Source: a virus. Taken from it: a DNA stretch of 64,000 bases. Positions 718 to 58,790 of the stretch are shown here, one piece after another. The stretch is taken from IMG/VR virus record IMGVR_UViG_3300044811_000031, positions 1 through 64,000 of that record; one strand, written 5' to 3'. The position numbers and the translations under genes were made by a program. The notes below the pieces were generated by a model that saw nothing but the letters and a program-made list of their open reading frames with translations, made no database searches and was not told where the DNA came from. The stretch's first letter is position 1. Each line of letters starts with the position of its first letter.

Positions 718-935
718 TCGCCAAAGTGCTGACCGTGACCGGTCGGCTGCCCGACGGGACCGAGGTGGGCCTCGCGGCCGCAGCCCCGACCGAGCTGTAC
801 AACGAGCTGCGCACCGGTTCCGAGGACGCCCTGAGCTACTGGCTGCGCCGGGAGCACCCCGAGGTCGGCGCCATCACCTCGGTATGGATGGACTACGACG
901 TGCCGGAGCAGGGGGACGAGGATGACGACCACTGA
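714..935 (+). CDS. hypothetical protein
   Basis: 73 residues, starting in an ATGA overlap with the nuclease gene and ending 14 bases inside the start of the polymerase gene, so it is translationally coupled on both sides. The sequence begins with a short beta-rich segment and ends in an acidic tail (EQGDEDDDH). No family recognised. Its position suggests an accessory role in replication, but nothing in the sequence proves it. Confidence 0.6.
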   Translation: MIAKVLTVTGRLPDGTEVGLAAAAPTELYNELRTGSEDALSYWLRREHPEVGAITSVWMDYDVPEQGDEDDDH

Positions 936-3900
936 AGATTCCCCGGCCGCCAAGGAGCTGTCGCAGGGCCATGCCGAAGAGCTGGCCCGATCGGTGATCA
1001 ACGCTGAAGCGATTACGGCTCGTGGCTACGAGACCCTGTACGGCTCGGACGAGGACAAGGCGCGGCTCAAGGCCCTGCACATCCCCCGCTGGGCCATCCG
1101 CGAGGACATGGCCTACCCGGGCATCCTCATGCCGATGTACCGCGTCACCGGTGAGGAGATCGGTGCGCAGTGGAAGCCCGCCATCCCCCAGGAGGCCCCC
1201 GGGGGCAAGCTGGAGAAGTACGCCAGCCAGGCCGGGGTGCCCAACCGGCTCGACGTCCCGCCGGGGGTGGCCGACTCCGTCCGCGACCCCAGCGACCCGC
1301 TGTGGATCACCGAAGGGATCAAGAAGGGCGACTGCCTGGCGAGCCTCGGCAAGGCCGTGGTCACGCTCACCGGCGTGTTCAACTGGCGCTCCAAGCACGG
1401 CACCCTGGGCGACTGGGAGGACATCCCGCTCCGGGGCCGGTCCGTGGTGATCTGCTTCGACTCCGATGCGCGGTCCAACCGCAACGTCATGGCGGCGATG
1501 CAGAGGCTCGGCCGGTGGCTGGGGTCCAAGGGTGCTCAGGACGTGCGGTACCTGATCGTCCCGGAGCAGGTCGACCAGACGCCGGTCAAGGGGGTGGACG
1601 ACTTCTTCGCCGCCGGGGGAACGATGGAGATCCTGGCCGGTGTGGCCATGACCGAGATCCCCAACGAGGCGCGGGACGCCACCTTCACCGACCGGGTGCT
1701 GGCCGACACGGTCTGCTCCGAGGAGCTGGACGGCCGCTTCCGCTGGGCCAGTGGGCTCGGCTGGATGCAGTGGACCGGCAAGGTGTGGAGGGAGGCCACT
1801 GAGGTCACCGTCACCGAGACCGTCAGCCGCTGGGCTCTGGAGCAGTTCCACCAGGCGGCGGACAATCACCTGCGGGGCAACGGCCGGGACGCTCAGGCAC
1901 TCATGGACGGCTGGCGCGGGGTGCTCTCGTCCGGCCGGGTGGGGGCGATCCTCAAGTTCGTGAAGGGGACGCTGGAGTGCGACCCGGACGCCTTCGACCG
2001 CGACCCGGATCTGCTCAACTGCCCGAACGGGATCGTGGACCTGCGGACGGGTCAGCTCCAGCCGCCGGACCCCGACATGCTGATGACCAAGATCACCGGT
2101 GCGGACTTCGTCAAGGACGCCGGGCACCCCGACTGGGACAAGGCTCTGGAGGCCCTGCCCGAGGACGTCAGGGACTGGTACCAGCTCCGCGTCGGGCAGG
2201 CTCTCACCGGCCACATGACCCCGGACGATCTGGTGGTCATCTGCCAGGGTGGCGGGAGTAACGGCAAGAGCACCGTGTACGACGGGTCCGCTCTCGCCGC
2301 CGGTAAGTACCACGTCCAGATCAGCGACCGGATGATGCTCGGGGCCGCGAGCGACAACCACCCCACCGAGATCATGGACCTGCTGGGGGCGCGGTACGCC
2401 GTGCTGGAGGAGACGCCGGAGTCAAGGAGGCTCGACACCAACCGGCTGAAGAAGGTCGCCGGTACCCGCGAGGTCACCGGCCGCCGCATCCGTCAGGACC
2501 CGGTGACCTTCAGCGCGACGCACAGCCTCTTCATCAACTCCAACTACAAGCCGGTGGTGGACGAGACCGACCACGGCACCTGGAGGCGCCTGGCGCTGCT
2601 GCGGTGGCCCTTCACCTTCAGGAAGGCCCAGAAGGACTGCCGGGGGCCGGAGGACCGGGTCGGTGACCCCACGCTGAGGGAGCGGATCAAGACCAACCCT
2701 CAGGCTCTGGAGGCCGCGCTCGCGTGGGCTGCGGCCGGGGCGAGGCGCTGGTACGAGCTGGAGAAGATCATGCCGGAGATGCCCGACCGGGTGATCGCCG
2801 ACACCCTCGAATGGCGCAAGGATGCCGACCTGATCCTGTCCTTCGTCGGGGAGGAGATCGAGTTCGATCTCGATGCGTACGTGGCCGGTACGGAGCTGCG
2901 CTCGGTGTTCAACAGGTGGGTCCGGGACAAGGGTCAGAAGGAGTGGGGGGACAAGACTTTCAACGCCCGTTTCGGGGGCCACGACGAGGTCTCCCAGCAC
3001 GGTGTGCAGTACCGCGTCGTGAAGGTTTCCAGCGGGCTGTCGACGCGGAAGCCGGATCCCCCCTCCGCATCGACCGTCAGGGCGTGGGTCGGTCTCAAAT
3101 TCCGAGACGAAAATGGAGGATCGGGCGAAACGGACATTTCGGTAAACGACCCGTTCACAGGCCCGGGAACAAGATCGGTTACGGCAGTTACACTTCCAGA
3201 CATAACCATTCCTGTACACCCCCGCGCGAGCGTTAATGCTGGAAGTGTAACTCCTGTAACCGATCATGAAACCGGAGCCGTAACGATCAAGGAATCTGAA
3301 ATCCAGGAGACCGGGGAAACCATGATCGAAAACCCGTTCGCGGATCTTTCCGTGGACCCCTTCGCGGACCCCGAGGAGGAGCCCCCCGCACCCCCCGTCA
3401 TCGACACCTCCGGACCGCTGGGATTCGACCTGGAGACTGCCGACGCGAAGGCCGCGTTCACGTACGGCCCGGGCTTCGTCCGGCTGCCGGGAGTGATCGA
3501 CCAGCACGGCACGATCCGCACCGGCGTGGACCCCGCCGAACTGGTCGAGATGATCAACGAGGCGCCGGAGGTCTACGGCCACAACATCCTCGGTTTCGAC
3601 GGCCCGGTGCTCGCGCACTGGCATGGGCTCGACTGGGAGGCGTTCACCGCCAAGGCTGTCGACACCGAGCCGCTCAGCCGTCAGGCCCACCCGCCGCACA
3701 GCCGCACCCACGGCTCGACCGACGAGTACGACCTCGATCACGTCGCGCTGCGCTACGGCCTGGTGGGCAAGATCACCGGGGAGGACGGCCTCCCGGCCCT
3801 CAAGCGCAAGTTCGGCGGGTACGACAAGATCCCTCTCGACAACCCGAAGTACAACGCCTACCTCGCGGGCGACCTGCGGGCCACCAAGGCGGTGCGGGAG

Positions 3901-5142
3901 ATCCTCCCCAGCGACGCGTACACCGCCCGGGAGCACGTGGTCCTGAAGCACATGGGACAGATGACCCTGAACGGGTTCAAAGTGGACGTCGCGCTCAACG
4001 AGCAGCGGATCCGGGAGGGGGAGGAGCGCAAGCAAGCCGCCCTCACGGCCCTCAGCGCCACCTACGGGCTCCCGCTGGGCCGCTCGGTACCCAGGGGGCG
4101 CGGGAAGGCGCGAGCGGCCGTCTGGGAGCCGCACAAGAGCCCGCTGGCCACCACGGAGGGCAACGCCTGGCTCCTCGACCTCTGGAAGCAGTTCGGGGTC
4201 CGGTACCCGCCGCGCACCAAGGAGGGCCACCTGAGCATGGCGGCCGACGCCCTGGAGACCGTGGCCCGGCACCCCCGCTGCGCGCCGGAGCTGAAGCAGG
4301 CTCTGGAGCTGATGGCCATCGTCACCAAGACCCGCACCGTCTACCAGACGGCGGCCACGTACCTCACCCCTGAGGGACGCGTCCACCCCAAGGTGAGCAT
4401 GCGCCAGGCATCCGGCCGGGGCTCCGTCACCGAGCCCGGGATGACCGTCTACGGCAAGCGCGACGGCAAGCACATCGAGCGGGACATCTTCATCGCGGAC
4501 GACGGCCACGTGATCATCACCTGCGACCTGAGCCAGGTCGACATGAGGGCGGTCGCGGGCCACTGCCAGGACCCGCTCTACATGGCGATGTTCGAGATCG
4601 GCAAGGACATGCACGCCGAGATCGCCGCGATGATGAACGTCACCCGCGACGGCGTCAAGCCGCTGAACCACGGCTACAACTACGGCATGGGCGCCCGCTC
4701 CATGATCGAGAAGGAGGGCCACGACCCGGGTCTGGTGCACGCCTTCTTCCAGGCGATGAGCCAGTTCACCGTCAAGGACACCTGGACCGGGAAGATCAGG
4801 GAGCAGGCGGAGGACGGCGGCCTGCTGGACAACGGCTTCGGCCGCCTGATGAGGTGCGACCCGAAGGCCGCCTACACCGTGGCGCCCGCGCTCATGGGCC
4901 AGGGCACGGCGCGCGACATCACCTGTCAGGTGCTGCTCCGGCTGCTGGACCGGCACCCCAACTACGCTCAGTATCTTAGGACTTGGGTCCACGACGAGTT
5001 TGTGTTCTCCGTCCCCGAGGACCAGGCCGAGCAGATCGGCAACGACATCAAGGAGGCGTTCACGTGGGAGTGGAAGGGCGTCCCGATCCTGTGCGAGCTG
5101 AGCAAGACGGGCCACAGCTGGGGAGAGTGCAGCGCCAAGTGA
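922..5142 (+). CDS. TOPRIM primase / SF3-type helicase / family A DNA polymerase fusion
   Basis: 1406 residues combining modules that are usually separate. N-terminal DUF3854/TOPRIM-like part: acidic 'WITEGIKKGD' near 127, 'VICFDSD' near 176, 'GVDDFFA' near 225. The middle is a D5/P4-type helicase with Walker A 'GGGSNGKST' near 443-451. The C-terminal half is a PolA-type replicase: exonuclease-like 'FDLETADAK' near 834, then polymerase motif A (D1202 in 'CDLSQVDMR'), motif B (R1242, K1246, Y1254) and motif C 'VHDEF' (H1357, D1358). The position equivalent to E. coli PolA F762 appears to be H1250. Together these should prime, unwind and copy DNA. The helicase and polymerase halves are joined by a lower-GC linker (about residues 710-815) that contains a strong DNA inverted repeat. 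The ORF is continuous. No separate helicase or polymerase gene is visible in the window. Confidence 0.9.
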   Translation: MTTTEDSPAAKELSQGHAEELARSVINAEAITARGYETLYGSDEDKARLKALHIPRWAIREDMAYPGILMPMYRVTGEEIGAQWKPAIPQEAPGGKLEKYASQAGVPNRLDVPPGVADSVRDPSDPLWITEGIKKGDCLASLGKAVVTLTGVFNWRSKHGTLGDWEDIPLRGRSVVICFDSDARSNRNVMAAMQRLGRWLGSKGAQDVRYLIVPEQVDQTPVKGVDDFFAAGGTMEILAGVAMTEIPNEARDATFTDRVLADTVCSEELDGRFRWASGLGWMQWTGKVWREATEVTVTETVSRWALEQFHQAADNHLRGNGRDAQALMDGWRGVLSSGRVGAILKFVKGTLECDPDAFDRDPDLLNCPNGIVDLRTGQLQPPDPDMLMTKITGADFVKDAGHPDWDKALEALPEDVRDWYQLRVGQALTGHMTPDDLVVICQGGGSNGKSTVYDGSALAAGKYHVQISDRMMLGAASDNHPTEIMDLLGARYAVLEETPESRRLDTNRLKKVAGTREVTGRRIRQDPVTFSATHSLFINSNYKPVVDETDHGTWRRLALLRWPFTFRKAQKDCRGPEDRVGDPTLRERIKTNPQALEAALAWAAAGARRWYELEKIMPEMPDRVIADTLEWRKDADLILSFVGEEIEFDLDAYVAGTELRSVFNRWVRDKGQKEWGDKTFNARFGGHDEVSQHGVQYRVVKVSSGLSTRKPDPPSASTVRAWVGLKFRDENGGSGETDISVNDPFTGPGTRSVTAVTLPDITIPVHPRASVNAGSVTPVTDHETGAVTIKESEIQETGETMIENPFADLSVDPFADPEEEPPAPPVIDTSGPLGFDLETADAKAAFTYGPGFVRLPGVIDQHGTIRTGVDPAELVEMINEAPEVYGHNILGFDGPVLAHWHGLDWEAFTAKAVDTEPLSRQAHPPHSRTHGSTDEYDLDHVALRYGLVGKITGEDGLPALKRKFGGYDKIPLDNPKYNAYLAGDLRATKAVREILPSDAYTAREHVVLKHMGQMTLNGFKVDVALNEQRIREGEERKQAALTALSATYGLPLGRSVPRGRGKARAAVWEPHKSPLATTEGNAWLLDLWKQFGVRYPPRTKEGHLSMAADALETVARHPRCAPELKQALELMAIVTKTRTVYQTAATYLTPEGRVHPKVSMRQASGRGSVTEPGMTVYGKRDGKHIERDIFIADDGHVIITCDLSQVDMRAVAGHCQDPLYMAMFEIGKDMHAEIAAMMNVTRDGVKPLNHGYNYGMGARSMIEKEGHDPGLVHAFFQAMSQFTVKDTWTGKIREQAEDGGLLDNGFGRLMRCDPKAAYTVAPALMGQGTARDITCQVLLRLLDRHPNYAQYLRTWVHDEFVFSVPEDQAEQIGNDIKEAFTWEWKGVPILCELSKTGHSWGECSAK
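3173..3265. repeat. 27-bp imperfect inverted repeat inside the polymerase gene linker
   Basis: Left arm 3173-3199, right arm 3239-3265, with 25 of 27 positions complementary and a 39-base spacer. The arms encode the linker peptides 'SVTAVTLP' and 'SVTPVTDHE'. The surrounding 150 bases are clearly poorer in GC than the rest of the gene and carry several copies of GTAAC/GTTAC. It could be a binding site, a replication start or an mRNA hairpin. Confidence 0.75.
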
Positions 5143-6207: not shown

Positions 6208-6921
6208 ATGACGACAGCCGTGTACGTGACCACCGAGGAGATCGACCTCGACGCCCTCACGCCCTTCCCGGGCAACGCCTGGCAGGGCGACCCGGAGAAG
6301 ATCGCGGAGAGCATCCGGGCCAACGGCCAGTACCGCTCCATGGTCGTCCGGCGCACCGGCGAGGGCGACGTCGTGCTCGCGGGCAACCACACCCGCCTCG
6401 CCCTGAAGCACCTGGGGCGCAGCTCCGGCCGGTGCGAGGTGATCGTGTGCGACGCCGATACCGCCGTACGCATCAACCTCGCGGACAACAAGATCCCCAC
6501 GTACGGCAGCTACGACGACAACGCCCTGCTGGAGCTGCTCAAGGTCGTGGCCGACGATATGACCGGCACCGGCTACGATCCCGACGAGCTGGACGACCTC
6601 CTGGCCGCCCTCACCCCGGACGTCACCGTGCTGCCGGAGGTGGGGCCCACGGACGCCCGCTACGCCGAGAGCGACGAGGAGGAGCAGGCGCGGCGCGACC
6701 GGGTCGAGGCATACGAGCCGCGCCACGGCGGGGGCGACGGGGACGGAGCGATGACCGAGCTGATCCTCGTCATGACCGTGGCCGACCGCACCGAGGCAGC
6801 CGAACTGATCAAGACGGTGCGCGAGCGCGACGGCGACCTGACCGCCGGGCAGATCGTGCTCTACGCCCTGCGGGTGCACGCGGCCGACGACGGGCCGGAA
6901 GAGGGCGACGAGGATGCCTGA
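6208..6921 (+). CDS. ParB/Srx-fold (ParB N-terminal-like) protein
   Basis: 237 residues. The N-terminal 110 residues carry ParB-like landmarks: 'LTPFPGNAWQGDPEKIAESI', 'NGQYRSMVVRR', 'VVLAGNHTRLALKHLG' and 'INLADNKI'. ParB/Srx domains bind nucleotides, and phage versions are often found beside DNA methylases and base-modification enzymes. The rest is acidic and helical. It starts the cassette leading to the TET/JBP-type oxygenase. A partner, specificity or nuclease role in DNA modification is inferred from this position, not from catalytic residues. Confidence 0.75.
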   Translation: MTTAVYVTTEEIDLDALTPFPGNAWQGDPEKIAESIRANGQYRSMVVRRTGEGDVVLAGNHTRLALKHLGRSSGRCEVIVCDADTAVRINLADNKIPTYGSYDDNALLELLKVVADDMTGTGYDPDELDDLLAALTPDVTVLPEVGPTDARYAESDEEEQARRDRVEAYEPRHGGGDGDGAMTELILVMTVADRTEAAELIKTVRERDGDLTAGQIVLYALRVHAADDGPEEGDEDA

Positions 6922-7339
6922 GCACCACGACCTCACCGGCGTACGCCTGACCGTGTGGTCGGGCCCTCAGGACGGCGCTGAGGTCCCCGTAGGGGGCATT
7001 GTGTCCGTCAAGCTGGACCCCCGAGGAGAGGACATGGCCATGCGTGATCCCGAGACCGCGAGACTGCTCCGGGCGGTGAGCGTGGCCGTGGCCGATGCAC
7101 GGGAGGGCGGCTGCGCCGCTCGTGCCTGCATCTGGGACGCGACGGTCGCCGCTGTCGACGGGGAGTACCGCGAGCACGCCTCCCCCGAGGCACGGCGCAC
7201 CGCAGACGGCGCATGCCGCGCCGTGGATCCGCCGACCGTCAAGGCCGGGCCCCGGCCGCCGGACCCTCCCCGCCTCGCCCGCTGGCTGCTGCGCCTGGGC
7301 AACGCGCTCGCGTCCAGGAAGGCCCGGCATGGAGCTTGA
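6914..7339 (+). CDS. hypothetical protein in the hypermodification cassette
   Basis: 141 residues overlapping both neighbours. The first ~45 residues ('VRLTVWSGPQDGAEVPVGG', 'VSVKLDP') resemble a small beta domain. The rest is helical with two cysteines and a proline-rich linker before a basic C-terminus. No family recognised. Tight overlap argues that it is made together with the modification enzymes. Confidence 0.55.
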   Translation: MPEHHDLTGVRLTVWSGPQDGAEVPVGGIVSVKLDPRGEDMAMRDPETARLLRAVSVAVADAREGGCAARACIWDATVAAVDGEYREHASPEARRTADGACRAVDPPTVKAGPRPPDPPRLARWLLRLGNALASRKARHGA

Positions 7340-8453
7340 GCGGGGCATGGACTTCCGCCTGCCGGAGTACCGGCGCGAGGTGTTCATCAGGTTCTTCCTG
7401 TGGACGTGCAGGCGGCGCAGCCACCCCGGCGCGGTGTACTACCTGATGCCCTGGCTGCGGGAGCACTACGGCTGGACGGCTGAGGAGGCCCTGTGGTTCG
7501 CGTTCCTCAACGGCAACACCCAGCACCCGGTGACCTCCCTCCTGCTGATGGACCGGTGCAATGACCCGAACGACGACGCCACCGTGGAGAGGATGCTGCA
7601 CTTCTACCGGCGGCAGTACCCGTGGCTGGCGTTCGACACCGACCGCCGCCACTGGAAGAAGAGCCTGCCCCAGGCCGTGGACAGCTACCGTGCCGCGCTG
7701 AAGCCCTACGGCGGAAGCCAGGCGGACATGTGGCAGGCTGCCGCCTCCGGAGGGTTCGCCGGAGTGTGGGACCAGGCCACCGCCCTGTACGGCTTCGGCC
7801 GTCTGAGCGCCTTCAGCTACGCCGAGTACCTGTGGCTGGCCGGGGTGCCGTTCACCTGTGACGACCTGATGCTCGGGGACAAGGACGGCTCCCGCTCCCA
7901 CCGCAACGGGCTGTGCATCGCCACCGGACAGGACGGCCTCGTCTGGGACCGGGCCCTCGGGACGTACGACGGCCGCTACCCGCCGAAGACCATCGCCACC
8001 CTGACCCGGGTGGCCGCGAGCATCCTTGAGGAGGCTCAGGACCGCGCCGGGGCGGCCTGGCGGGGGGACGTCAACAACTTCACCCTGGAGTCCGCCCTGT
8101 GCACGTACAAGGGCTGGCACAAGCCCAACCGCCGGTACCCCGGCGTCTACAACGACATGCTCTACACCCGGCTCAAGCGGTACGAGGAGACGTGGCCCGG
8201 CGGGGGGCAGCAGTGGACGGCCCCCTTCTGGCAGGCGCGCCACGACAGCCTCCCCGCGTGGATGCGGCTGGAGGACAGCCCGTACGACCCCGGCTGCGTC
8301 CCGGTGAAGCAGAACTGGTACCGCACCACCGGGGAGATCCCCGTCATGGGCCACGACGATCCGGTCTTCTGGTCGGGCTTCGACTCGGGGGTCGGGCGGG
8401 GCGAGTTCGGCCTGAGGAAAGATCTCCAACGGGACAGGATGGTGCTGCGGTGA
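7329..8453 (+). CDS. putative alpha-glutamyl/putrescinyl thymine pyrophosphorylase-type enzyme (aGPT-Pplase)
   Basis: 374 residues from ATG 7329 (or ATG 7347). The N-terminus ('FRLPEYRREVFIRFF', 'PGAVYYLMPWLREHYGW', 'LWFAFLNGNTQHPVTS') matches my recollection of the aGPT-Pplase families found in phages with hypermodified bases. These enzymes replace the pyrophosphate on activated 5-hydroxymethyl pyrimidines with an amino acid or amine. No P-loop is present. The next genes supply a PLP enzyme, a P-loop kinase and an oxygenase, exactly the partners such an enzyme needs. The family call rests on motif memory and context; a profile search would settle it. Confidence 0.7.
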   Translation: MELERGMDFRLPEYRREVFIRFFLWTCRRRSHPGAVYYLMPWLREHYGWTAEEALWFAFLNGNTQHPVTSLLLMDRCNDPNDDATVERMLHFYRRQYPWLAFDTDRRHWKKSLPQAVDSYRAALKPYGGSQADMWQAAASGGFAGVWDQATALYGFGRLSAFSYAEYLWLAGVPFTCDDLMLGDKDGSRSHRNGLCIATGQDGLVWDRALGTYDGRYPPKTIATLTRVAASILEEAQDRAGAAWRGDVNNFTLESALCTYKGWHKPNRRYPGVYNDMLYTRLKRYEETWPGGGQQWTAPFWQARHDSLPAWMRLEDSPYDPGCVPVKQNWYRTTGEIPVMGHDDPVFWSGFDSGVGRGEFGLRKDLQRDRMVLR

Positions 8454-9475
8454 CCACCGGCACGATCTTCCCCGACCTCGCCCCGGCCGACGTCCACTGG
8501 GGTGACCAGACCGACAAGCTCACCCCGGTCGACACCGGCGAGAGCGGCCTGATGTACAAGCGTGAAGATTTCTTCGCCCCGCTGGGGTACGGCGGCATCA
8601 ACGGCTCCAAGCTGCGCCAGCTCATCTACCTCATGGAGCCGATGCGTGGCGGCACCGCCGTGACCGCCTGCTCCGTGCTGTCCCCGCAGAGCAGCATGAC
8701 CGCTCTGGTCGGCCGTCACTTCGGGGTCGGGGTCACGGTCATCCTGGGGGCGACGCGGTACGAGAGTGCCGTCAAGCACGAGAACGTGAAGATCGCCGTG
8801 GCTGCCGGAGCCGAGCTGAAGTTCGTCAAGGTGGCCTACAACCCGGCGCTCCAGAGGGCTGTGAAGCTCCACCAGGCGGAGCACGGGAGCTACGTGGTGC
8901 CCTACGGCATCACCACCCCGCCCGAGGCCGGACCGCGCCAGGTCGCGAGCTTCCACCTGCTCGCGTCGCGTCAGGTCGTCAACATCCCCGCCCAGACCCG
9001 CACTCTGGTGATCCCCTTCGGCTCTGCCAACTCGGCCACCGGTGTGCTCACCGGGCTGGCCCGCTACGGCCCCGGAGCCATCAGCCGGGTGGTGCTCATC
9101 GGCATCGGGCCCAACCGGCTGCCCTGGCTGTGGAAGCGGCTGGAGGTGATCGAGCGGGGACTCGGGCTCGACATCCGCAGCCTGTTCACGGTGCGCAGCC
9201 ACTTCCAGGGGGCGCAGTCCTCCGCCGACGTACAGGACACCGCCGGGCCCGTGCTGCTGGAGCACTACGACCTGCACGGCACGGGGTACGTCAGATACGC
9301 CGACCGGCGCCTCTGGAGGCAGGACGGCATCGACTTCCACCCCACGTACGAGGGCAAGGTCATGCACTGGCTCGCCGACGTCCGCCCCCACTGGCACAAG
9401 CCCGCCGACGGTACCGAACTGTTCTGGATCGTCGGTTCCGAGCCCCACCTGTCCGCGATGAAGGAGCTGCTGTGA
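8450..9475 (+). CDS. PLP-dependent enzyme, tryptophan synthase beta/ACC deaminase fold
   Basis: 341 residues from GTG 8450, overlapping the previous stop by four bases. 'KREDFFAPLGYGGINGSKLRQ' matches the fold-type II pattern in which the lysine (K54) forms the Schiff base with PLP. 'SVLSPQSSMT' follows as the substrate-binding loop and 'PFGSANSATG' as the phosphate-binding loop. In phage thymidine hypermodification such enzymes decarboxylate or rearrange the amino acid attached by the pyrophosphorylase. The amino acid used here cannot be predicted. Confidence 0.8.
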   Translation: MTTGTIFPDLAPADVHWGDQTDKLTPVDTGESGLMYKREDFFAPLGYGGINGSKLRQLIYLMEPMRGGTAVTACSVLSPQSSMTALVGRHFGVGVTVILGATRYESAVKHENVKIAVAAGAELKFVKVAYNPALQRAVKLHQAEHGSYVVPYGITTPPEAGPRQVASFHLLASRQVVNIPAQTRTLVIPFGSANSATGVLTGLARYGPGAISRVVLIGIGPNRLPWLWKRLEVIERGLGLDIRSLFTVRSHFQGAQSSADVQDTAGPVLLEHYDLHGTGYVRYADRRLWRQDGIDFHPTYEGKVMHWLADVRPHWHKPADGTELFWIVGSEPHLSAMKELL

Positions 9476-10038
9476 ACCTGCTGTACATCGTCGGACCTCC
9501 CGGCGTCGGGAAGAGCACCCTGATGACCGCGCTCACCGCACGCTGCGAACGCCGGGCACGGGTGAGCCCCTTCGCCCATTGCCACCTGCTGCGTCGCGAC
9601 CCGACCGGCCTGCTCTCCTCCGACCCGGTGGCGGTCGAGCTGGGCAAGCACCGCGACTCCTTCAGCGGCACGGACGCCCTGAGCATGAGCGTCCAGCCGA
9701 AGGCCATGGAGTGGATCTGCTCCAAGCCCTCGCCTCTCGTGCTCGGTGAGGGGGCCCGGCTCGGCACGGTCGGCTTCCTCATGGCCGCACGCAGCGCCGG
9801 GTACCGGGTGACGCTCGTGCACCTGGAGGCCGACCAGCGCACCCTCGCTGAGCGACGGAGGGCCCGGGGCAGCCTCCAGAACGAGCAGTGGATGCGGGGT
9901 GCGGAGACCCGGGCGGCCCGGCTGGCTGAGAGGATGAGCATGGATGCCGACGTTCACGTCATCCGTGCCGACCGGCCGCCCAACCGGATGGCCGACTTCA
10001 TCATCGGCCTGGACCCTGAGCTGGAGGTGCTGCGGTGA
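9472..10038 (+). CDS. P-loop kinase, probable 5-hydroxymethyl-pyrimidine DNA kinase
   Basis: 188 residues from GTG 9472 (GTGA overlap). Walker A 'GPPGVGKST' at residues 8-16. A C-terminal helical block 'ERRRARGSLQNEQWMRGAETRAARL' resembles the lid region of phage 5-hmdU DNA kinases. Such kinases put (pyro)phosphate on 5-hydroxymethyluracil in DNA and so prime it for substitution. A general nucleoside kinase is the alternative, but gene order favours the DNA-modification role. Confidence 0.75.
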   Translation: MNLLYIVGPPGVGKSTLMTALTARCERRARVSPFAHCHLLRRDPTGLLSSDPVAVELGKHRDSFSGTDALSMSVQPKAMEWICSKPSPLVLGEGARLGTVGFLMAARSAGYRVTLVHLEADQRTLAERRRARGSLQNEQWMRGAETRAARLAERMSMDADVHVIRADRPPNRMADFIIGLDPELEVLR

Positions 10039-10943
10039 TCGATCTGCGTCTGCGCTCGCGGGTGTCCGCCGACGAGCTGGCCACCAAGGCCGGGAAGATC
10101 CTCGGGCCCCAGGACTACAACCTGCTGCTGACTGGCCCGGCTCGTATCCGCATGCCCGACAACCGGCCGCTGGCGGTGTACCTGCCGGGTGTGCTCACCG
10201 GCTACCTGGACGAGCCCGGTGTCTACGACATCCTCCATTCGCTGCGCAGCAGCCGGACCAACAACCGTGGCCTGGCCAGTGGCAGTAAGAGGTTCCAGAC
10301 CCGCCATGGCGCAGCACAGGGCAGTGAGGACGGGCGCCGGGGCACCGGCCGCACCTACAGCCGTCAGGTGCCGTCGATGATCGCGGGTGCCGTGGACCCC
10401 CAGGGACAGAAGCAGCACTGCCGTCTGACCGCCTGGACCGGCACCCACATGCCGCAGTGGCAGGCTCTCCAGCCTCTGTTCCGGGCCGTGGCCGTGAACC
10501 AGAAGCTCTACGTGCCGGAGCGCGCCGCCGCGCAGCAGGAGCAGGCCGACAAGACCGACCCGGCGTGGGTGGTGCCCGGCACTCCGTTCAGCACGATCAC
10601 GGTCAACAACACCTACCCCACCGGCGTCCACACCGACAAGGGTGATCTCGACGCGGGCTTCAGCACCATCGCGGTGCTGCGCCGGGGGCCGTACGTAGGC
10701 GGTCACCTCGTCTTCCCGGAGTACCGGGTGGCCGTCGACCTGCACCATGGCGACCTGATCCTCATGGATGCGCACCAGTGGCACGGCAACACGGCCCTGG
10801 TCTGTGCGTGCGGCCGGGAGCCCAACGGGAGCTGCGAGGAGTGCGGTGCTGAGAGGATCAGCATCGTGTCGTACTTCCGCACAAAGATCACCGAGTGCGG
10901 CACTCCCGATCAGGAGCTGCGTAAGGCCACCGGCGTTCGCTGA
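10035..10943 (+). CDS. TET/JBP-family 2-oxoglutarate/Fe(II) dioxygenase
   Basis: 302 residues from GTG 10035 (GTGA overlap). The catalytic core is clear: 'FSTITVNNTYPTGVHTDKGD' supplies the iron ligands H199 and D201, 'DAHQWHGN' the distal H250, and 'RISIVSYFR' the 2-oxoglutarate-binding arginine (probably R274). The pattern is close to trypanosome JBP and phage TET-like enzymes, which hydroxylate the methyl group of T or 5-methyl-C in DNA. Between H250 and R274 lies a small insert with C258, C260, C267 and C270, likely a zinc knuckle. It closes the cassette. No cytosine-5 methylase is visible in the window, which slightly favours thymine as substrate. Confidence 0.88.
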   Translation: MIDLRLRSRVSADELATKAGKILGPQDYNLLLTGPARIRMPDNRPLAVYLPGVLTGYLDEPGVYDILHSLRSSRTNNRGLASGSKRFQTRHGAAQGSEDGRRGTGRTYSRQVPSMIAGAVDPQGQKQHCRLTAWTGTHMPQWQALQPLFRAVAVNQKLYVPERAAAQQEQADKTDPAWVVPGTPFSTITVNNTYPTGVHTDKGDLDAGFSTIAVLRRGPYVGGHLVFPEYRVAVDLHHGDLILMDAHQWHGNTALVCACGREPNGSCEECGAERISIVSYFRTKITECGTPDQELRKATGVR

Positions 10944-14081: not shown

Positions 14082-14248
14082 GCAAGATAGTGATCACCAT
14101 TGAGGGCGACGAGCTGGAGATCGGCGAGGCCACCGATCTCCTGGTCCGCCTCGCCGAGGATCTGGCAAGCCAGGGATTCGCGTCCTCCGGGTACGAGGTC
14201 GGCCCCGAGCAGGACACCCTCGCCCTCGTCGGTCGGAGCATGCAGTGA
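14078..14248 (+). CDS. hypothetical protein
   Basis: 56 residues, GTG start in the previous stop (GTGA), ending in a GTGA overlap with the epimerase gene. Short beta strand ('KIVITIEGDELEIG') followed by a helix ('EATDLLVRLAEDLASQG'). No family recognised. Confidence 0.55.
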   Translation: MSKIVITIEGDELEIGEATDLLVRLAEDLASQGFASSGYEVGPEQDTLALVGRSMQ

Positions 14249-15291
14249 TCAACAGAGTCCTGCTCACGGGAGCATCCGGCTTCGTCGGGGCGCACGTGCT
14301 GCGCCACCTGCTTACCCACACCGACTGGCATATCGTCTGCCCGGTAACCTTCACCCACCACGGCCTGCCCGGCCGTATCGCGTCGTCCATCTGCGACGAC
14401 GCGGAGTGGATCAATCGGGTGGACGTCGTCCACTGGGACCTGCGCTCCCCGGCGGACTCCGTCACCGTCGGCCGCATCGGCGCCATCGACTACGTGCTCA
14501 ACGTGGCGAGCGAGAGCCACGTGGACCGGTCCATCGAGCACCCGGCCGACTTCATCTCCAACAACGTCTCCCTCATGCTCAACGTGCTGGAGATGGCCGT
14601 ACAGCTCCAGCCCAAGGTCTTCCTCCAGATGAGCACGGACGAGGTCTACGGCCCGGCTCCCGAGGGCTACGACTCCCGCGAGTGGGACGTCATCGCCCCG
14701 TCCAATCCGTACAGCGCGAGCAAGGCGGCGCAAGAAGCCATCGCCTTCAGCTACTGGCGGACGTACGGCGTGCCGGTCGTCATCACCAACACGATGAACA
14801 TCGTCGGGGAGATGCAGGACCGCGAGAAGTTCATCCCGATGATCATCGGCAAGGTGCTGTCCGGCAACCCCATCACCGTGCACACCGACTCCACCGGCAA
14901 GCCGGGCAGCCGCTTCTACCTGCACGCCCGCAACCTCGCCGACGCGTGGCTCTGGCTGCTGCACGAGCGTGGCCACAGCTGGGACCTCCAGGAGTATGCC
15001 GACGGGTCCGCCCGGCCGAGCCGCTACAACATCGTCGGGGAGCGGGAGGTCGACAACATCGAGATGGTGCGGCTGGTGGCCAATGCCGTCTGGGACGCGA
15101 AGGGCATGCCCCGCACCGACCCAATGATCAACCGGGTGGACTTCCACAGCTCGCGCCCCGGGCACGACCTGCGCTACGCCCTCGACGGCAGCAAGCTCCA
15201 CGCCATCGGCTGGCAGCCGCCGGTGCCCCTGGAGTCCGCCCTCAAGAAGACCGTGGCCTGGACGCTCGACCACCCGGAGTGGCTGCGGTGA
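14245..15291 (+). CDS. NAD(P)-dependent sugar epimerase/dehydratase (extended SDR)
   Basis: 348 residues. Rossmann fingerprint 'GASGFVGAHV' near 10; active-site motifs 'STDEVYG' and 'YSASKAAQE' (Tyr and Lys), as in dTDP-glucose 4,6-dehydratase and UDP-glucose epimerase. These enzymes reshape nucleotide sugars in the cytoplasm. Together with the glycosyltransferase at 48.7 kb this points to sugar decoration of virions or DNA, but the sugar cannot be predicted. It lies in the accessory block between the two terminase genes. Confidence 0.88.
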   Translation: MINRVLLTGASGFVGAHVLRHLLTHTDWHIVCPVTFTHHGLPGRIASSICDDAEWINRVDVVHWDLRSPADSVTVGRIGAIDYVLNVASESHVDRSIEHPADFISNNVSLMLNVLEMAVQLQPKVFLQMSTDEVYGPAPEGYDSREWDVIAPSNPYSASKAAQEAIAFSYWRTYGVPVVITNTMNIVGEMQDREKFIPMIIGKVLSGNPITVHTDSTGKPGSRFYLHARNLADAWLWLLHERGHSWDLQEYADGSARPSRYNIVGEREVDNIEMVRLVANAVWDAKGMPRTDPMINRVDFHSSRPGHDLRYALDGSKLHAIGWQPPVPLESALKKTVAWTLDHPEWLR

Positions 15292-51719: not shown

Positions 51720-51746
51720 GATCTCTCCTGTCTCGTTGGTCTTACG

Positions 51747-51821
51747 TGCACCCGGCAGGACTCGAACCTGCGCCACGCGGCTTCGTAGGCCGCTGCTCTG
51801 TCCGGACTGAGCTACGGGTGC
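51747..51821 (-). tRNA. tRNA-Arg (anticodon ACG)
   Basis: 75 bases. Acceptor 7 bp (GCACCCG/CGGGTGC), D-stem GCTC/GAGC, anticodon stem GCGGC/GCCGC with loop CTACGAA, T-arm GCAGG-TTCGAGT-CCTGC. No CCA encoded. All stems are complete. Confidence 0.93.
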
Positions 51822-51899
51822 TCGGTGGCCGCCGCTGGCCCTCAGTGGACCGGCGGCGGCCGGGGTGGTGCTACCTCCTTGGTCGGGCCCGGCGAGCCC

Positions 51900-52352
51900 T
51901 CAGCGGGCTGTTCGGGCGCGGTCCCGCTGGCTGATGAAGCCGTGCTCCTTCGGTGCCAGCGGCAGCTCCTCCTCGCGGTGGGCGACGACCCAGCTGTCCG
52001 CGTCGCCGTCGCCGTCCGCCAGGGTGATCCGGCAGGCGACCCACAGCCCCGGGGTCTCCCGGATGTGGTCCTCCAGGTTGCCCCCGATGTACTCGGAGGA
52101 GTGCAGCCCCACGCCGCTGTAGCCGTACTGCCCAGTCCAGCCGGACAGCAGGCTCCAGCCCTGGCGCCGGACCGCGCGGATCATGTCGGCCTCGTGCTCC
52201 TTGAGGATCGAGCCGTCGTCCGTCGTCTCGGTCTCGACCTCCGGCGCCCGGACGTCCGGCACGGCCTCGACCGTGCCGTCATCCCGGACCCGGACGACCT
52301 GGCCGAACTCCATCAGGTCGCGCAGCTCCCGGCTGCGTCGTCCCCAGCCCAT
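51900..52352 (-). CDS. hypothetical protein
   Basis: 150 residues from ATG 52352 (TAATG overlap with the upstream gene). 'GQVVRVRDDGTVEAVPDV', 'VRRQGWSLLSGWTGQYGYSG' and 'GLWVACRITLADGDGDADSWVVAHREEELPL' suggest an alpha/beta fold. No family recognised. Confidence 0.6.
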   Translation of the reverse strand: MGWGRRSRELRDLMEFGQVVRVRDDGTVEAVPDVRAPEVETETTDDGSILKEHEADMIRAVRRQGWSLLSGWTGQYGYSGVGLHSSEYIGGNLEDHIRETPGLWVACRITLADGDGDADSWVVAHREEELPLAPKEHGFISQRDRARTAR

Positions 52353-52828
52353 TACGGCTTCCACTGCGATCCGCCGAAGTGCGGGTCACGCTTCATGGCC
52401 CGGGTGTAGTCGGTACCGGCCGCCACCATCGCGTCCGGGCCCGGCTCGTCCGGGTCCAGGCCGCGCTGCTTGAGCCATGCCTTACGGCCCTTGGCGGTGC
52501 CGTCGTGGTAGCTCCCCCACGCCTCGATCAGGACGGCACGGTGGGCGTTGGTCGTGGTGGAGTGGTTGACCGCCGGGATGACCCGCTCCAGCAGGCCGGT
52601 CTGCTCGTCTTCGAGGGCCCAGCCGATCGGGGTGTCGTAGCTGTAGACCACGTACACCGCCTCATGCAGGCTGGCCTTCAGCTCGGCCGCGTTGCTCTCG
52701 CTGCTCAGCCAGCCGAGGTCGCGCCCGGCGCCGGGTACGCCGCGCAGGTTGCCGGTGGACAGCTCCCACTTGCGGTGGTTGTCGAACGCGCTGATCGCCT
52801 TACGCCGTGCTTCCTGTCCCATGGCCAT
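52352..52828 (-). CDS. hypothetical protein with YVVYSY-TPI-W motif
   Basis: 158 residues, ATG at 52828 after AGGAGAC. 'AVYVVYSYDTPIGWALEDEQTG' and 'VIPAVNHSTTTNAHRAVLIEAWG' parallel the 50494 gene product and so define a family used at least twice here. Function unknown. Confidence 0.65.
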   Translation of the reverse strand: MAMGQEARRKAISAFDNHRKWELSTGNLRGVPGAGRDLGWLSSESNAAELKASLHEAVYVVYSYDTPIGWALEDEQTGLLERVIPAVNHSTTTNAHRAVLIEAWGSYHDGTAKGRKAWLKQRGLDPDEPGPDAMVAAGTDYTRAMKRDPHFGGSQWKP

Positions 52829-52848
52829 GGGTGTCTCCTGTCTCGGGG

Positions 52849-52863
52849 GATTTAATTAAACCA
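52849..52863 (-). promoter_or_regulatory. AT-rich conserved box
   Basis: GATTTAATTAAACCA; 14 of 15 bases match 58641-58655. Each lies just upstream of a minus-strand gene, so a promoter or operator is likely. Confidence 0.55.
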
Positions 52864-52865
52864 CT

Positions 52866-52889
52866 CGGAGCCCCCCGGAGGGGGCTCCG
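52866..52889 (-). terminator. minus-strand terminator
   Basis: Perfect 10-base stem (52866-52875 with 52880-52889) with a 4-base loop; on the minus strand followed by TGGTTTAATT. Separates the 52894 and 52352 genes. Confidence 0.78.
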
Positions 52890-52893
52890 GCGA

Positions 52894-53154
52894 CTACACC
52901 TCGCGGCTGGCCGCCCACAGCCGCCGGGTGGCGGCGAACACGGCGACCCGCTTCCTCGTCTTCAGGTCGGACCCGGTGACGAAGTAGGCCGGGATGTACT
53001 CGCCCCGGTACAGGATCTCCGCCAGGGCGACCTGGTGGACCAGCACCTGGCGGGTGATGACGGCCGGGCCGTCGTCCTTGACGTACTCGGTGAACACGTC
53101 GCCACCCTTCAGCTGCGGGCTGCGGACGATGAACTCGGTGAGCTTGCTCTGCAT
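52894..53154 (-). CDS. hypothetical protein
   Basis: 86 residues, ATG at 53154 after AGGAGATCG. Beta-rich ('GGDVFTEYVKDDGPAVITRQVLVHQVALAEILYRGEYIPAYFV'), basic end. No family recognised. Confidence 0.6.
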   Translation of the reverse strand: MQSKLTEFIVRSPQLKGGDVFTEYVKDDGPAVITRQVLVHQVALAEILYRGEYIPAYFVTGSDLKTRKRVAVFAATRRLWAASREV

Positions 53155-53193
53155 GATCGATCTCCTGGGCTTGCTGTGCGGTGGACGGGCGGG

Positions 53194-53538
53194 TCAGCGG
53201 CTGGACCGCTTCTTGAACGTCACCGGCGCGTCGTCCGTGTAGACGGCGTCCCGGATCTTGGGGGCCCAGCGGAACATCGGCTTGGTCCGGGCGGGGGCCA
53301 GCCAGGTCTCCCCGTTCTGCGGGTTGCGGCGCACCCGGGGCGCCTCGACCTTCGGGTACCAGGTACCGAAGTTGGTGACGTTGACCGGGTGACCGGCCAC
53401 CACGTTGCGGGGGATGACGTCGAACGTCGCCCGCAGTACCCGCTCCACGATCTCGCGGCTGACGCCGGACTCGGCCGCGACGGCCTCGGCCAGGGCCATG
53501 TGGTTCAGGCGGCCGGTGGGGATGTGTCGTGCGCTCAT
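53194..53538 (-). CDS. HU/IHF-family DNA-binding protein
   Basis: 114 residues, ATG at 53538 after GGAGATC. 'GRLNHMALAEAVAAESGVSREIVERVLRATFDVI', 'VNVTNFGTWYPK' and 'RRNPQNGETWLAPARTKPMFRWAP' follow the HU pattern, including the beta-arm 'RNPQNGE' with its proline. Bends and compacts DNA. Likely organises phage DNA or aids replication. Confidence 0.85.
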   Translation of the reverse strand: MSARHIPTGRLNHMALAEAVAAESGVSREIVERVLRATFDVIPRNVVAGHPVNVTNFGTWYPKVEAPRVRRNPQNGETWLAPARTKPMFRWAPKIRDAVYTDDAPVTFKKRSSR

Positions 53539-53545
53539 GATCTCC

Positions 53546-53998
53546 TCAATCCTTGACGACCGGCCACGGGACCGGCTTGCCGTCGCTCTTGCGGACCCAC
53601 TGTCCGCCGGATGTCTTCTCGAAGGGGTCGATCAGGTCGGCCGCGAACTCCATGCCGTCCAGACCGTGGGGCGTCCAGGTGCCGAGGCGCCTGACCCGCG
53701 CCTTGCGGATCTTCTCCGCGTCGTAGTGCTGGATCATGTCCGGCAGCCACGAGACGAACTTGCACAGGGTCTCCAGCTCGGAGTCGTCACCCTCCCAGTC
53801 GTCCGGCTGGTCCATGTCGTAGGTGACCTTGTGGACCGCGTCGGCCAGCGTGCGGTACGCCGCGTGATCGCTGTCCTCCAGCGCTCCGGCGGCGACCTTG
53901 TCGTGGAACTGCTGGATGTACTTGCTCCCGCTGTCCCACGTCCAGCCGTGAGCGATCATCGCCCCCAGGAGGACGGCCCGCTCGGTCTCTCCGTGCAT
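53546..53998 (-). CDS. hypothetical protein
   Basis: 150 residues from ATG 53998 (ATGA overlap). Helical and acidic ('GETERAVLLGAMIAHGW', 'DSDHAAYRTLADAVHKVTYDMDQPDDWEGD') with a basic C-terminal third. No family recognised. Confidence 0.6.
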   Translation of the reverse strand: MHGETERAVLLGAMIAHGWTWDSGSKYIQQFHDKVAAGALEDSDHAAYRTLADAVHKVTYDMDQPDDWEGDDSELETLCKFVSWLPDMIQHYDAEKIRKARVRRLGTWTPHGLDGMEFAADLIDPFEKTSGGQWVRKSDGKPVPWPVVKD

Positions 53999-54171
53999 CA
54001 CGATGCCTCCGTCCGGGCGAGGAACCACGCGGCGGACCGGGACGTCCTCCGTGCCCTGCTGGAGGCCCGTGAGCCCCTGGCCCGGTCGGTGGTGCCGGAC
54101 CGGTCCTGTTCGGCCGCCCTGCGCCCGTCTGTGGACGCCTTGCGGGTCTTCTGCACCTGCTCCTGCTTCAT
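53998..54171 (-). CDS. small basic disordered protein
   Basis: 57 residues, ATG at 54171 after GGAGATCG. Rich in R, S, T and A with no hydrophobic core except 'AAWFLA'. Probably disordered, perhaps nucleic-acid-binding. Overlaps the next gene by ATGA. Confidence 0.5.
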   Translation of the reverse strand: MKQEQVQKTRKASTDGRRAAEQDRSGTTDRARGSRASSRARRTSRSAAWFLARTEAS

Positions 54172-54192
54172 AACCGATCTCCTCTCACTGCG

Positions 54193-54265
54193 AGCCCCCG
54201 GCACGATTCGAACGTGCAACCTGCTCATTACGAAAGAGCTGCTCTGGCCGTTGAGCTACGGGGGC
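54193..54265 (-). tRNA. tRNA-Thr (anticodon CGT)
   Basis: 73 bases. Acceptor GCCCCCG/CGGGGGC, D-stem GCTC/GAGC, anticodon loop TTCGTAA in a stem with one T-T mismatch next to the loop, T-arm GCACG-TTCGAAT-CGTGC. U33 present. Confidence 0.85.
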
Positions 54266-54289
54266 TGGCCCGGCCGGAGCCGGGGTTGT
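54264..54289 (-). repeat. tRNA-flanking hairpin repeat, copy 1
   Basis: A 26-base sequence with stem CCCGGC/GCCGGG, identical to 58983-59008. Both copies lie at the 5' edge of a minus-strand tRNA gene. A related but diverged sequence follows the tRNA-Arg at 51850. Confidence 0.8.
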
Positions 54290-54291
54290 GC

Positions 54292-54573
54292 TCACTTCCT
54301 TCGTCCACCGCACCAGGACTCCAGCGCTCCGTCGATCACCTGCTTGTTGCTGGTGGTCTCGGCTTCGTCCTCGTCCGCGAAATCGAACCACACCGAGTGC
54401 AGCCACTCGGAGAACGGCTTGGCGCTCTCGGGCGGCAGCTCGCGGGTGTCCAGGACGTACTGGTAGATCATCCCGGCGTCGACACCGCGCTGGACGCCCG
54501 GCCTGACGTCCTCCGGCCGGGCCCCCTGCTCGTCGTACTGCTCGGCCAGGGCTTTGGGGTCCAGGGCGGTCAT
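54292..54573 (-). CDS. hypothetical protein
   Basis: 93 residues, ATG at 54573 in an ATGA overlap. Acidic and helical ('DPKALAEQYDEQG', 'SAKPFSEWLHSVWFDFADEDEAET'). Last gene before the tRNA-Thr. Confidence 0.6.
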   Translation of the reverse strand: MTALDPKALAEQYDEQGARPEDVRPGVQRGVDAGMIYQYVLDTRELPPESAKPFSEWLHSVWFDFADEDEAETTSNKQVIDGALESWCGGRRK

Positions 54574-54890
54574 CGGGGCACCTCTACTTCGGCGCTCTCG
54601 ATGGCCGTGGTGTGGACTCCGTAGACCCCGGCCTTGCTGGCTGTGATGAGGTACATGCCGACAGCTTTGGACGGGTCCTTGAAAGCCTGGCCCCACGAGA
54701 GGTCGAGCTGCTGGACGAACAGGTCGCGCTGGAAGCCGACGACCCGGTACGGGTCGCCATGCCAGACGTCCTGGCGGCCGATCATGCCCTGCTCGTCTGC
54801 GAAGAACGGGTACGGGAGCTTGGTCAGCTCCTGTCCGTCGTCGGTGATCTGATCGGTGAACGCTGCGGGTTGCAGCCGGATGATGGTCAT
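54570..54890 (-). CDS. hypothetical protein
   Basis: 106 residues, ATG at 54890 in an ATGA overlap. Beta-rich ('HGDPYRVVGFQRDLFVQQLDLSWGQAF', 'AVGMYLITASKAGVYGVHTTAIESAEVEV'). No family recognised. Confidence 0.6.
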   Translation of the reverse strand: MTIIRLQPAAFTDQITDDGQELTKLPYPFFADEQGMIGRQDVWHGDPYRVVGFQRDLFVQQLDLSWGQAFKDPSKAVGMYLITASKAGVYGVHTTAIESAEVEVPR

Positions 54891-55276
54891 AGCGGGTCCA
54901 GCCCTTCGTGCTCACGGATCAGGTTGGCGAGGGTGACCATGTCGTCGGCCCACCGCTTGCTGCTGTGGACCTCGATGCCGAGCCCCCGCAGGTACTCGCG
55001 GGCGGCGGACTCACGCCTGTCCCAGGCGAGCTGCTCGGGGGTGCGGATACGCGCCGGGCTGCCGATGCCCTTGCCCGGCGGGTAGACGGTCTTGGTCCCC
55101 ATGTGGAAGCGGTCGTCCCGGATGTACCCGCCGTCTATCGGCTTGACGGTCAGCCATACCCGGCCGACCGAGACGACCTCGACCGGGGTCTCCCGGGTGC
55201 CACGGTTCAGCGTTTCGGTGATCATCAGTTCGTCGCCGACGGCCAGCGGACCCAGCTCCGGGCGCTTGTGGTTCAT
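54887..55276 (-). CDS. hypothetical protein
   Basis: 129 residues, ATG at 55276 in an ATGA overlap. SH3-like start ('LAVGDELMITETLNRGTRETPVEVVSVGRVWLTVKP'), helical end ('REYLRGLGIEVHSSKRWADDMVTLANLIREHEG'). Function unknown. Confidence 0.6.
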   Translation of the reverse strand: MNHKRPELGPLAVGDELMITETLNRGTRETPVEVVSVGRVWLTVKPIDGGYIRDDRFHMGTKTVYPPGKGIGSPARIRTPEQLAWDRRESAAREYLRGLGIEVHSSKRWADDMVTLANLIREHEGLDPL

Positions 55277-55428
55277 CGCCACAGCGAGTCCCCCTCCTCG
55301 TCCACGGCCTCGCCGTCGATGCCCTGGCCGACGATCGTCCACTTCTCGGGGAGGTCGTCGTACGCCTGGATGATCGCGGCCTTGGGGTCGTCGGACTCGA
55401 TCTCGATGAAGATCTGTACGTGTGCCAT
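55273..55428 (-). CDS. hypothetical protein
   Basis: 51 residues, ATG at 55428 after GGAGAG. 'HVQIFIEIESDDPKAAIIQAYDDLPEKWTIVGQ' is a compact beta-alpha-beta pattern with an acidic end. Starts an overlapping four-gene run (55273-54292). Confidence 0.6.
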   Translation of the reverse strand: MAHVQIFIEIESDDPKAAIIQAYDDLPEKWTIVGQGIDGEAVDEEGDSLWR

Positions 55429-55456
55429 CTGCTCTCCTCTCCACTGTGCTGGGTGA

Positions 55457-55483
55457 ACCGTACCCCGGGGCTGACTGGGTCAA
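55457..55483 (-). promoter_or_regulatory. candidate minus-strand promoter
   Basis: On the minus strand: TTGACC (55478-55483), 15 bases, TACGGT (55457-55462), then an RBS and ATG 55428. Spacing is slightly short. The sequence between and around also forms a CCCCGGGG inverted repeat. Confidence 0.5.
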
Positions 55484-55508
55484 CCCCGGGGCAGGCTACA
55501 CGGGTTGG

Positions 55509-56228
55509 TCAGCGGTAGCCCTTCGCGGTCGTCCGGAAGGTCGATTTGGTGCCGGTCTTCCACCAGCGGCCCTGACTGAGCGGCGTGGCGCAGAACTCCA
55601 CGACGTGGAGCACCCCGGCCATCTCGTTGACGTAGTCCCGCCACTCCTCGTAGGACATGTCCTCCGGACCCTTGAAGTACAGCGTGTCGTCGCCGTCGGC
55701 CAGGTAGCCGGTGTCCCGGTCGATGATGACGTTGAGCGCCCAGTCGGCCAGGTGCGGGGGGACCTCCTTGAGCTGCTCCCGGCGGCGGCCGGACTTCCAG
55801 CCGGTCCAGCCGTTGGCCAGCTTGTCGTCCATCCACGCCATCAGGTCGAGCACCTGGCTGGTGGCCATGCGGAACGACCCGGCGACTTGGTGGGGGGTGC
55901 TGTTCCAGAACGTGGTGAAGTGCACTCCCGCGTCCGGCAGCCGCTTGGCCTGCATCGTGTTCTGTCCACCGGCGTTGGTCCAGACGTCGCCCATGCGGGA
56001 GCGGTGCAGCCACCCGGCCAGCCGCTCGAAGTCGGCCTGCTCCAGCAGGGTCGAGTCCGAGTGGGAGCTGTGCATCGGGTAGAGCGCGAGCACGGTGGTG
56101 TCGTCCAGGGGGCGCCAGTAGCGCGGTCCCATCTGGAAGCTCGATGACTTGTTCTGCTCGCCCTTGCCCGCTACCTGGTACAGCGCGGCTTCGTACGCCT
56201 GCTGCTCTTCCCTCGTGCGCCTAGGCAT
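55509..56228 (-). CDS. hypothetical protein
   Basis: 239 residues, ATG at 56228 after GAGGAGG. Alpha/beta with 'VLALYPMHSSHSDSTLLEQADFERLAGWLHR' and 'LADWALNVIIDRDTGYLADGDDTLYFKGPED'. No family recognised. Largest unknown in this part. Confidence 0.6.
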   Translation of the reverse strand: MPRRTREEQQAYEAALYQVAGKGEQNKSSSFQMGPRYWRPLDDTTVLALYPMHSSHSDSTLLEQADFERLAGWLHRSRMGDVWTNAGGQNTMQAKRLPDAGVHFTTFWNSTPHQVAGSFRMATSQVLDLMAWMDDKLANGWTGWKSGRRREQLKEVPPHLADWALNVIIDRDTGYLADGDDTLYFKGPEDMSYEEWRDYVNEMAGVLHVVEFCATPLSQGRWWKTGTKSTFRTTAKGYR

Positions 56229-56466
56229 TGTGTGTTCCTCCTCGTCCCTGCCAGCGGAGGCCGTGGCGCCTCAACCGGGTGATCTTGTTCTTGCTCTCGT
56301 GGTCCATCAGCTTGGCGGTGGTGGAGACGATCTCCCGGTAGCCGCAGGCCAAGCAGACCAGCGCCGGGTGCTTGCCCCGGCTGCGGTCCAGCTCGAACAC
56401 CTTCTGCTCCTCCGCCGCGTCGACCAGGCGGCGGAGGAGGTCGGAGCGGAAGCGGATCTTGCTCAT
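56221..56466 (-). CDS. small zinc-knuckle protein
   Basis: 81 residues, ATG at 56466 in an ATGA overlap. Helical start ('FRSDLLRRLVDAAEEQKVFEL') and 'LVCLACGYREIVSTTAKLMDHE', a Cys-x2-Cys with a later His. Basic end. Confidence 0.55.
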   Translation of the reverse strand: MSKIRFRSDLLRRLVDAAEEQKVFELDRSRGKHPALVCLACGYREIVSTTAKLMDHESKNKITRLRRHGLRWQGRGGTHNA

Positions 56467-57005: not shown

Positions 57006-57026
57006 CGTGCTCTCCTCTCGTTTGAG

Positions 57027-57096: not shown

Positions 57097-57136
57097 GTGC
57101 ACGGGATTACGGCTCCCGGCGGCCGGTCGGGCGTCC

Positions 57137-57223: not shown

Positions 57224-57226
57224 TCT

Positions 57227-58788: not shown

Positions 58789-58790
58789 TC

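Follow-up and report, generated by a model that had tools for sequence, protein, structure and literature searches.

A contiguous phage gene cassette joining a TET/JBP dioxygenase to ADDT and PLP genes, predicted to hypermodify thymidine

Among phages, the characterised routes to hypermodified thymidine bring in 5hmU by way of the nucleotide pool. The present locus raises the question of how such a base could be built when a TET/JBP dioxygenase gene stands among genes for phosphorylation, amino-acid attachment and a PLP enzyme, and which base would result. Iyer et al. 2013 reportedly predicted such gene combinations computationally.

The locus is probably best explained by post-replicative thymidine hypermodification with an oxidative front end, a pathway in which we infer each catalytic step. 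The TET/JBP enzyme would act on thymine in phage DNA and hydroxylate its 5-methyl group, giving 5hmU; a P-loop kinase would phosphorylate the 5hmU hydroxyl, ADDT would swap the phosphate for an amino acid, and the PLP enzyme would trim this amino acid, most likely as a decarboxylase. The ParB-fold protein would probably recruit the enzymes to DNA, and the product would shield phage DNA from host nucleases.

Gene content of the cassette and its carrier

The window, that is the whole 64,000-base stretch analysed, comprised bases 1-64000 of an IMG/VR record of 87,791 bases, which was classed as linear and is possibly incomplete; no 20-base stretch was common to its last 2 kb and its first 3 kb. 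The remaining 23.8 kb of the record were included in the searches for absent genes. The carrier is a soil actinobacterial phage, with its terminase nearest to those of Streptomyces phages OnionKnight and mu1/6 (44-45%), and no useful close nucleotide relatives of the window were found in phage records. Six genes make up the cassette:

6208..6921, plus strand: ParB-fold protein, 237 aa (phrog_723, 6.6e-40; no Pfam match)
6914..7339, plus strand: 141-aa protein of no family (no Pfam or PHROG match)
7329..8453, plus strand: ADDT, amino acid:DNA transferase, aGPT-Pplase clade 2, long form (PF18724, 3.1e-15; phrog_3271, 6.6e-68)
8450..9475, plus strand: fold-type II PLP enzyme of the ViI orf00226 family (phrog_3650, 4.5e-84; PF00291, 3.9e-8, just below cut-off)
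9472..10038, plus strand: P-loop kinase, Ploopntkinase3 (PF18751, 1e-33)
10035..10943, plus strand: TET/JBP 2-oxoglutarate/Fe(II) dioxygenase (PF12851, 4.2e-16)

Neighbouring genes overlap, from 5' to 3', by 8, 11, 4, 4 and 4 nt. A previous sequence-only reading had described six overlapping genes here (ParB-like, unknown, aGPT-type pyrophosphorylase, PLP enzyme, P-loop kinase and TET/JBP dioxygenase), and all six ORFs were recovered with matching profiles. The profile searches that it had proposed gave an assignment to five of the proteins, ADDT falling into PF18724 and the kinase into PF18751 instead of the 5-hmdU kinase family, and left the 141-aa protein without a family. The name aGPT-type pyrophosphorylase is right in that aGPT-Pplase2 is the old name of ADDT, but the label itself had to give way, since the Pfam family is now that of amino acid:DNA transferases.

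The five recognisable genes are under purifying selection, with dN/dS from 0.21 (TET) to 0.63 (ParB) when the window is compared with its nearest relative (L013). Minus-strand shadow ORFs across the cassette were discarded because conservation and dN/dS supported the plus-strand frames. For the 141-aa protein, one partial relative was found among 74 loci, upstream of ParB in L016, and by sequence comparison the gene is an accessory one that is not conserved with the cassette. The AlphaFold model of the ParB-fold protein (pLDDT 86.7) had nucleotide-bound ParB CTPase structures as its top matches; that this protein brings or loads the modification enzymes on DNA is a guess.

Other genes were also observed in the record. 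A 1406-aa protein (window 922-5142), in which D5-type primase/helicase domains are fused to a family A DNA polymerase, is also found ahead of the cassette in related phages. A sugar pathway, which may serve the virion, the host surface or DNA, is represented by NAD-dependent epimerases and by two glycosyltransferase-like genes (window 14245-15291; record 69160-73076, which is L092 5160-9076), and a second ParB-like gene is possible. Seven tRNAs were predicted (window 51746-63255), and the one with anticodon cta, called tRNA-Pyl, may read amber codons or may be a false prediction.

The oxidative front end and its substrate

The dioxygenase matched Tet_JBP (PF12851) with 59 bits against a cut-off of 34.9, and its metal and 2OG residues (H199-x-D201, H250, R274/R282) were invariant in 61 distinct TETs. 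Structure matches 1-26 of its AlphaFold model (pLDDT 91.4) in PDB were all of the TET family (CcTet, TET2, NgTET1 and CMD1; E down to 8.9e-12), followed by AlkB and FTO. Sequence searches of PDB with TET, ADDT and the kinase returned nothing, and the TET was placed by structure comparison only. It is predicted to be a thymine-5-methyl hydroxylase acting on DNA. Two relatives of this enzyme, gp2 of Zemanar (L002 785-1759) and gp2 of MementoMori (L003 642-1595), carry the annotation queuine tRNA-ribosyltransferase. In a short MAG contig from an actinomycete (L098 930-2794), a PLP-family gene comes directly after a TET.

According to the passages of PMC12730594 that cite Burke 2021, the phage TETs studied experimentally act on 5-methylcytosine, as part of cytosine pathways that also involve a C5-methylase and glycosyltransferases. 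On this model, the TET of the window would oxidise 5-methylcytosine made by the host or by an undetected methylase, and the product would be a hypermodified cytosine. Such a route is unlikely in view of the methylase searches: C5-cytosine methylase (PF00145) was absent from the 87.8-kb record with positive controls, no match above cut-off was obtained in 46 of 50 relative records, and in the other four (4/50) the gene always lay tens of kb from the cassette. No match to the TET-associated glycosyltransferase (TAGT) was found near the window TET. The partners of the TET also argue against cytosine, since to our knowledge ADDT, 5hmU kinase and ViI-type PLP enzymes are known only from thymidine pathways. 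The thymidylate synthase family (PF00303) was likewise absent from the 87.8-kb record with positive controls, so that the lack of thymidylate-synthase-like and C5-methylase genes, noted before for the window, is true of the whole 87,791-base record. No TS-like gene was present in any of the 50 records with a window-type TET, absences that are provisional as the records may be fragments. Because thymine is the only abundant 5-methylpyrimidine where no C5-methylase exists, T is strongly favoured, and the choice of T over C as the predicted substrate is well supported.

How the front end relates to the rest of the pathway was seen from PLP-bearing viral records. The PLP protein alone retrieved 1 relative in the viral scan and the PLP alignment retrieved 230; the best 80 of these 230 loci gave a sample of 46 records, which is biased towards the window's own branch because it is the best-scoring part. 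TET was present in 38 of the 46, a TS-like gene in 3 and HMUDK_hel in 4, and all of the TS-like and HMUDK_hel records were among the 8 without TET, so the overlap with TET was zero in this set, some members of which may be fragments. The PF18751 kinase was present in 39 of the same 46 records, 37 of them with TET. The hypergeometric chance of zero overlap was 0.0037 for TS and 0.0004 for HMUDK_hel (0.008 and 0.001 with near-copies collapsed), figures to be taken as guides only, since the collection is non-random and its records are partly fragments. HMUDK_hel (PF18723) was absent from the record of the window, and the same search found it in the cultured phages M6, ViI and Montesquieu, the last of which also has a TS-like hydroxymethylase and gave no TET-HMM match in the stretch compared.

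From this exclusivity, with 38 TET records and neither gene in any of them, it follows that TET stands in for the nucleotide-level front end. Because TET never occurred with TS-like or HMUDK_hel genes, two interchangeable front ends would feed one ADDT and PLP tail. The order given by the sequence-only reading, in which oxidation on DNA is followed by phosphorylation, amino-acid attachment and the PLP step, is the best reading.

The kinase showed 40-48% identity to actinophage kinases, one of which is annotated as a 5-hmU DNA kinase, and its Walker A K14 was invariant in 48 kinases. From its context, the enzyme is predicted to place a phosphate on the 5-hydroxymethyl group of the base in DNA. 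The designation as a P-loop kinase is borne out by PF18751, but membership of the 5-hmdU kinase family is not: M6 gp54/gp55 gave PF18748/PF18723, and the position of the window kinase outside the characterised family PF18748, together with the missing HMUDK_hel, counts against the proposed pathway. We know of no characterised member of PF18751, and several cultured homologues carry the annotation adenylate kinase. The genes might then not act in series on DNA at all, with the kinase working on nucleotides and the TET having another role, for example erasing host methylation marks. This is highly improbable, given that ADDT occurs strictly with kinase and TET, that modules are swapped in place (see below) and that the TET excludes the TS-like/HMUDK front end. 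The kinases adjoining the TETs of Zemanar and MementoMori, and also M6 gp54, are annotated as terminase small subunit.

The ADDT and PLP tail and its likely product

ADDT matched PF18724 with 57 bits against a cut-off of 26.2, and was 46% identical to gp3 of the Mycobacterium phage Zemanar group and 39% to the ADDT of Glutamicibacter phage Montesquieu. The HMM of the window family of ADDT found ViI orf00247 (3.4e-50) and did not detect M6 gp51, which was matched by the short-ADDT HMM (3.7e-19). For the PLP enzyme, the window-family HMM found ViI orf00226 at 1.1e-91 and M6 gp52 at 5.8e-7. The motifs GINGSKLRQ and HPxYEGKVM were common to the window and ViI, the active-site motifs being near-identical in the alignment, and K54 of NGSKLR was invariant in 24 PLP proteins. 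Identity to Vibrio ViI-like phages was ~41%, and the nearest solved structures were ACC deaminases. Lee et al. 2022 reportedly showed amino-acid attachment and PLP decarboxylation, and ViI orf00226 is presumably the decarboxylase of that work; the PLP enzyme of the window is predicted to decarboxylate the attached amino acid.

The base of ViI, 5-NeOmdU, is known and is 5-(2-aminoethoxy)methyl-dU. In ViI-group phages it is found at ~40% of T (PMC11721090). Since ADDT and the PLP enzyme are both ViI-type, the simplest prediction by analogy is that the product would be 5-(2-aminoethoxy)methyl-dU or a close relative, a prediction that extends to the amino acid used and to the final base. The claim of a probably new base is not supported and was downgraded owing to this homology, ViI being the closest match for both enzymes.

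The same pathway could still end in an undescribed base, if another amino acid were attached or another PLP reaction (elimination, racemisation or deamination) took place, and this version, which differs from the best explanation in product only, is possible though doubtful. The window ADDT is distant from ViI orf00247 (family HMM 3.4e-50), PLP fold type II enzymes catalyse many reactions with ACC deaminases as the nearest structures here, and in relatives additional genes are inserted between PLP and kinase or between ADDT and PLP; but the PLP active-site motifs are nearly those of ViI, and the cassette of the window holds no extra tailoring gene. A radical-SAM gene is present in M6-like cassettes (PMC9476957), with no counterpart in the window cassette. 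The ViI-like product is thus kept as the simplest prediction.

Exchange of tails among relatives and comparison with known systems

The IMG/VR scan gave 74 loci encoding TET relatives (44-85% identity). HMMs built from these loci were used to count co-occurrence in 75 loci including the window, 37 of which had an intact neighbourhood. A kinase adjoined or lay near the TET in 60/75 loci. ParB was present in all 37 intact neighbourhoods, the kinase in 29 and any ADDT in 27, and ADDT was always accompanied by the kinase (27/27). In each of the 8 intact neighbourhoods without kinase there was a radical-SAM/SPASM gene or a glycosyltransferase of the TET-associated kind (PF20691-like). Because ADDT tracks the kinase and the kinase-less TETs have one of these genes, each TET would have a partner for its predicted hydroxyl. 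Radical-SAM/SPASM genes near a TET with kinase and ADDT missing were observed in L040, L041, L051, L052, L054, L086 and L095.

Two tails were counted, kinase with ADDT2 and PLP (27 loci) and kinase with short ADDT and a FAD-dependent oxidoreductase (12 loci). On the TET tree, tail types were clustered yet changed repeatedly. In the clearest case, L020 and L023 had ~86% DNA identity up to the end of ParB and once more starting at the kinase, whereas between these genes L020 carries ADDT-short and FAD, L023 carries ADDT2, an extra gene and PLP, and no alignment was obtained. As the swap lies exactly between ParB and kinase, the middle genes would act on the kinase/TET product. A second case was formed by the window and L013 (PLP) against L014-L016 (FAD). 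In a contig of 92,743 bases from Streptomyces africanus NRRL B-24243 (L096), the 1-kb stretch compared was an exact match to L020; the strain is a cultured one, and its phage carries the TET/kinase/ADDT-short/FAD cassette. No cultured phage with the complete cassette including PLP was found.

These swaps invite a broader and tentative idea, rather unlikely in its full form, of an exchangeable base-coding cassette. A fixed core of ParB and TET, usually with kinase, would oxidise T on DNA, while middle blocks (ADDT2 with PLP, ADDT-short with the FAD enzyme, and others) would be swapped to change the base; the combination in the window would give an undescribed base, and a ParB-type clamp would guide the TET along replicated DNA.

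Among characterised phages, the closest is Salmonella phage ViI (5-NeOmdU), which has homologous ADDT (orf00247) and PLP (orf00226) genes. It has a TS-like hydroxymethylase and HMUDK/HMUDK_hel where the window has TET and the PF18751 kinase, and its genes are scattered whereas those of the window are contiguous. Montesquieu shares the ADDT-PLP-kinase(-kinase) order (identities 39%, 32% and 29-33%) but has a TS/pyrimidine hydroxymethylase and HMUDK_hel in place of TET. In Rhodococcus phage Tonitrus, five genes have been proposed to hypermodify thymidine (PMC11955845), coding for ParB, a Tet-like J-binding protein, aGPT-Pplase2, a 5-hmU kinase and one hypothetical protein; Gordonia phage Wooper has the same five-gene annotation. 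Both resemble the window in having ParB, TET/JBP, ADDT and a PF18751-type kinase in one operon, and differ in a separate TET branch on the tree, a short-clade ADDT and no PLP match in the stretches compared. MementoMori and Ottawa carry the same genes as this set, ADDT not being seen in the stretch compared. Genes gp1-gp4 of Mycobacterium phage Zemanar (Coopervirus) likewise encode ParB, TET-like protein, ADDT and kinase, and no cultured phage comes nearer to the window in ADDT than the Zemanar group (46%), but its cassette has no PLP gene, its TET is distant, and gp2 and gp4 bear the annotations mentioned above.

The cytosine system (Burke 2021) also uses a TET to make a hydroxyl handle on DNA, whereas the cassette of the window lacks C5-methylase and glycosyltransferase and would follow the kinase/ADDT/PLP route. 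With kinetoplastid JBP1/2 (base J) it shares thymine in DNA as the inferred substrate, but glucosylation in base J is replaced by kinase and an amino-acid route.

In the readable literature, no description was found of a TET front end with a ViI-type PLP tail, of front-end exclusivity or of in-place tail swapping. The oxidative entry read from the sequence alone has a precedent: a TET-entry thymidine system without PLP has already been proposed for a cultured actinophage (PMC11955845). The parts are known, and the combination is probably a little-described, widespread variant, its front end and that of the textbook pathway being interchangeable.

If true, a front end that oxidises T once the DNA has been replicated would spare the phage the need to remodel its dNTP pool, and the pathway would be a phage counterpart of base J synthesis. 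It would also provide tools, namely TET enzymes directed at thymine and new 5hmU kinases. Front-end exclusivity and in-place tail swaps make the logic of the pathway directly testable.
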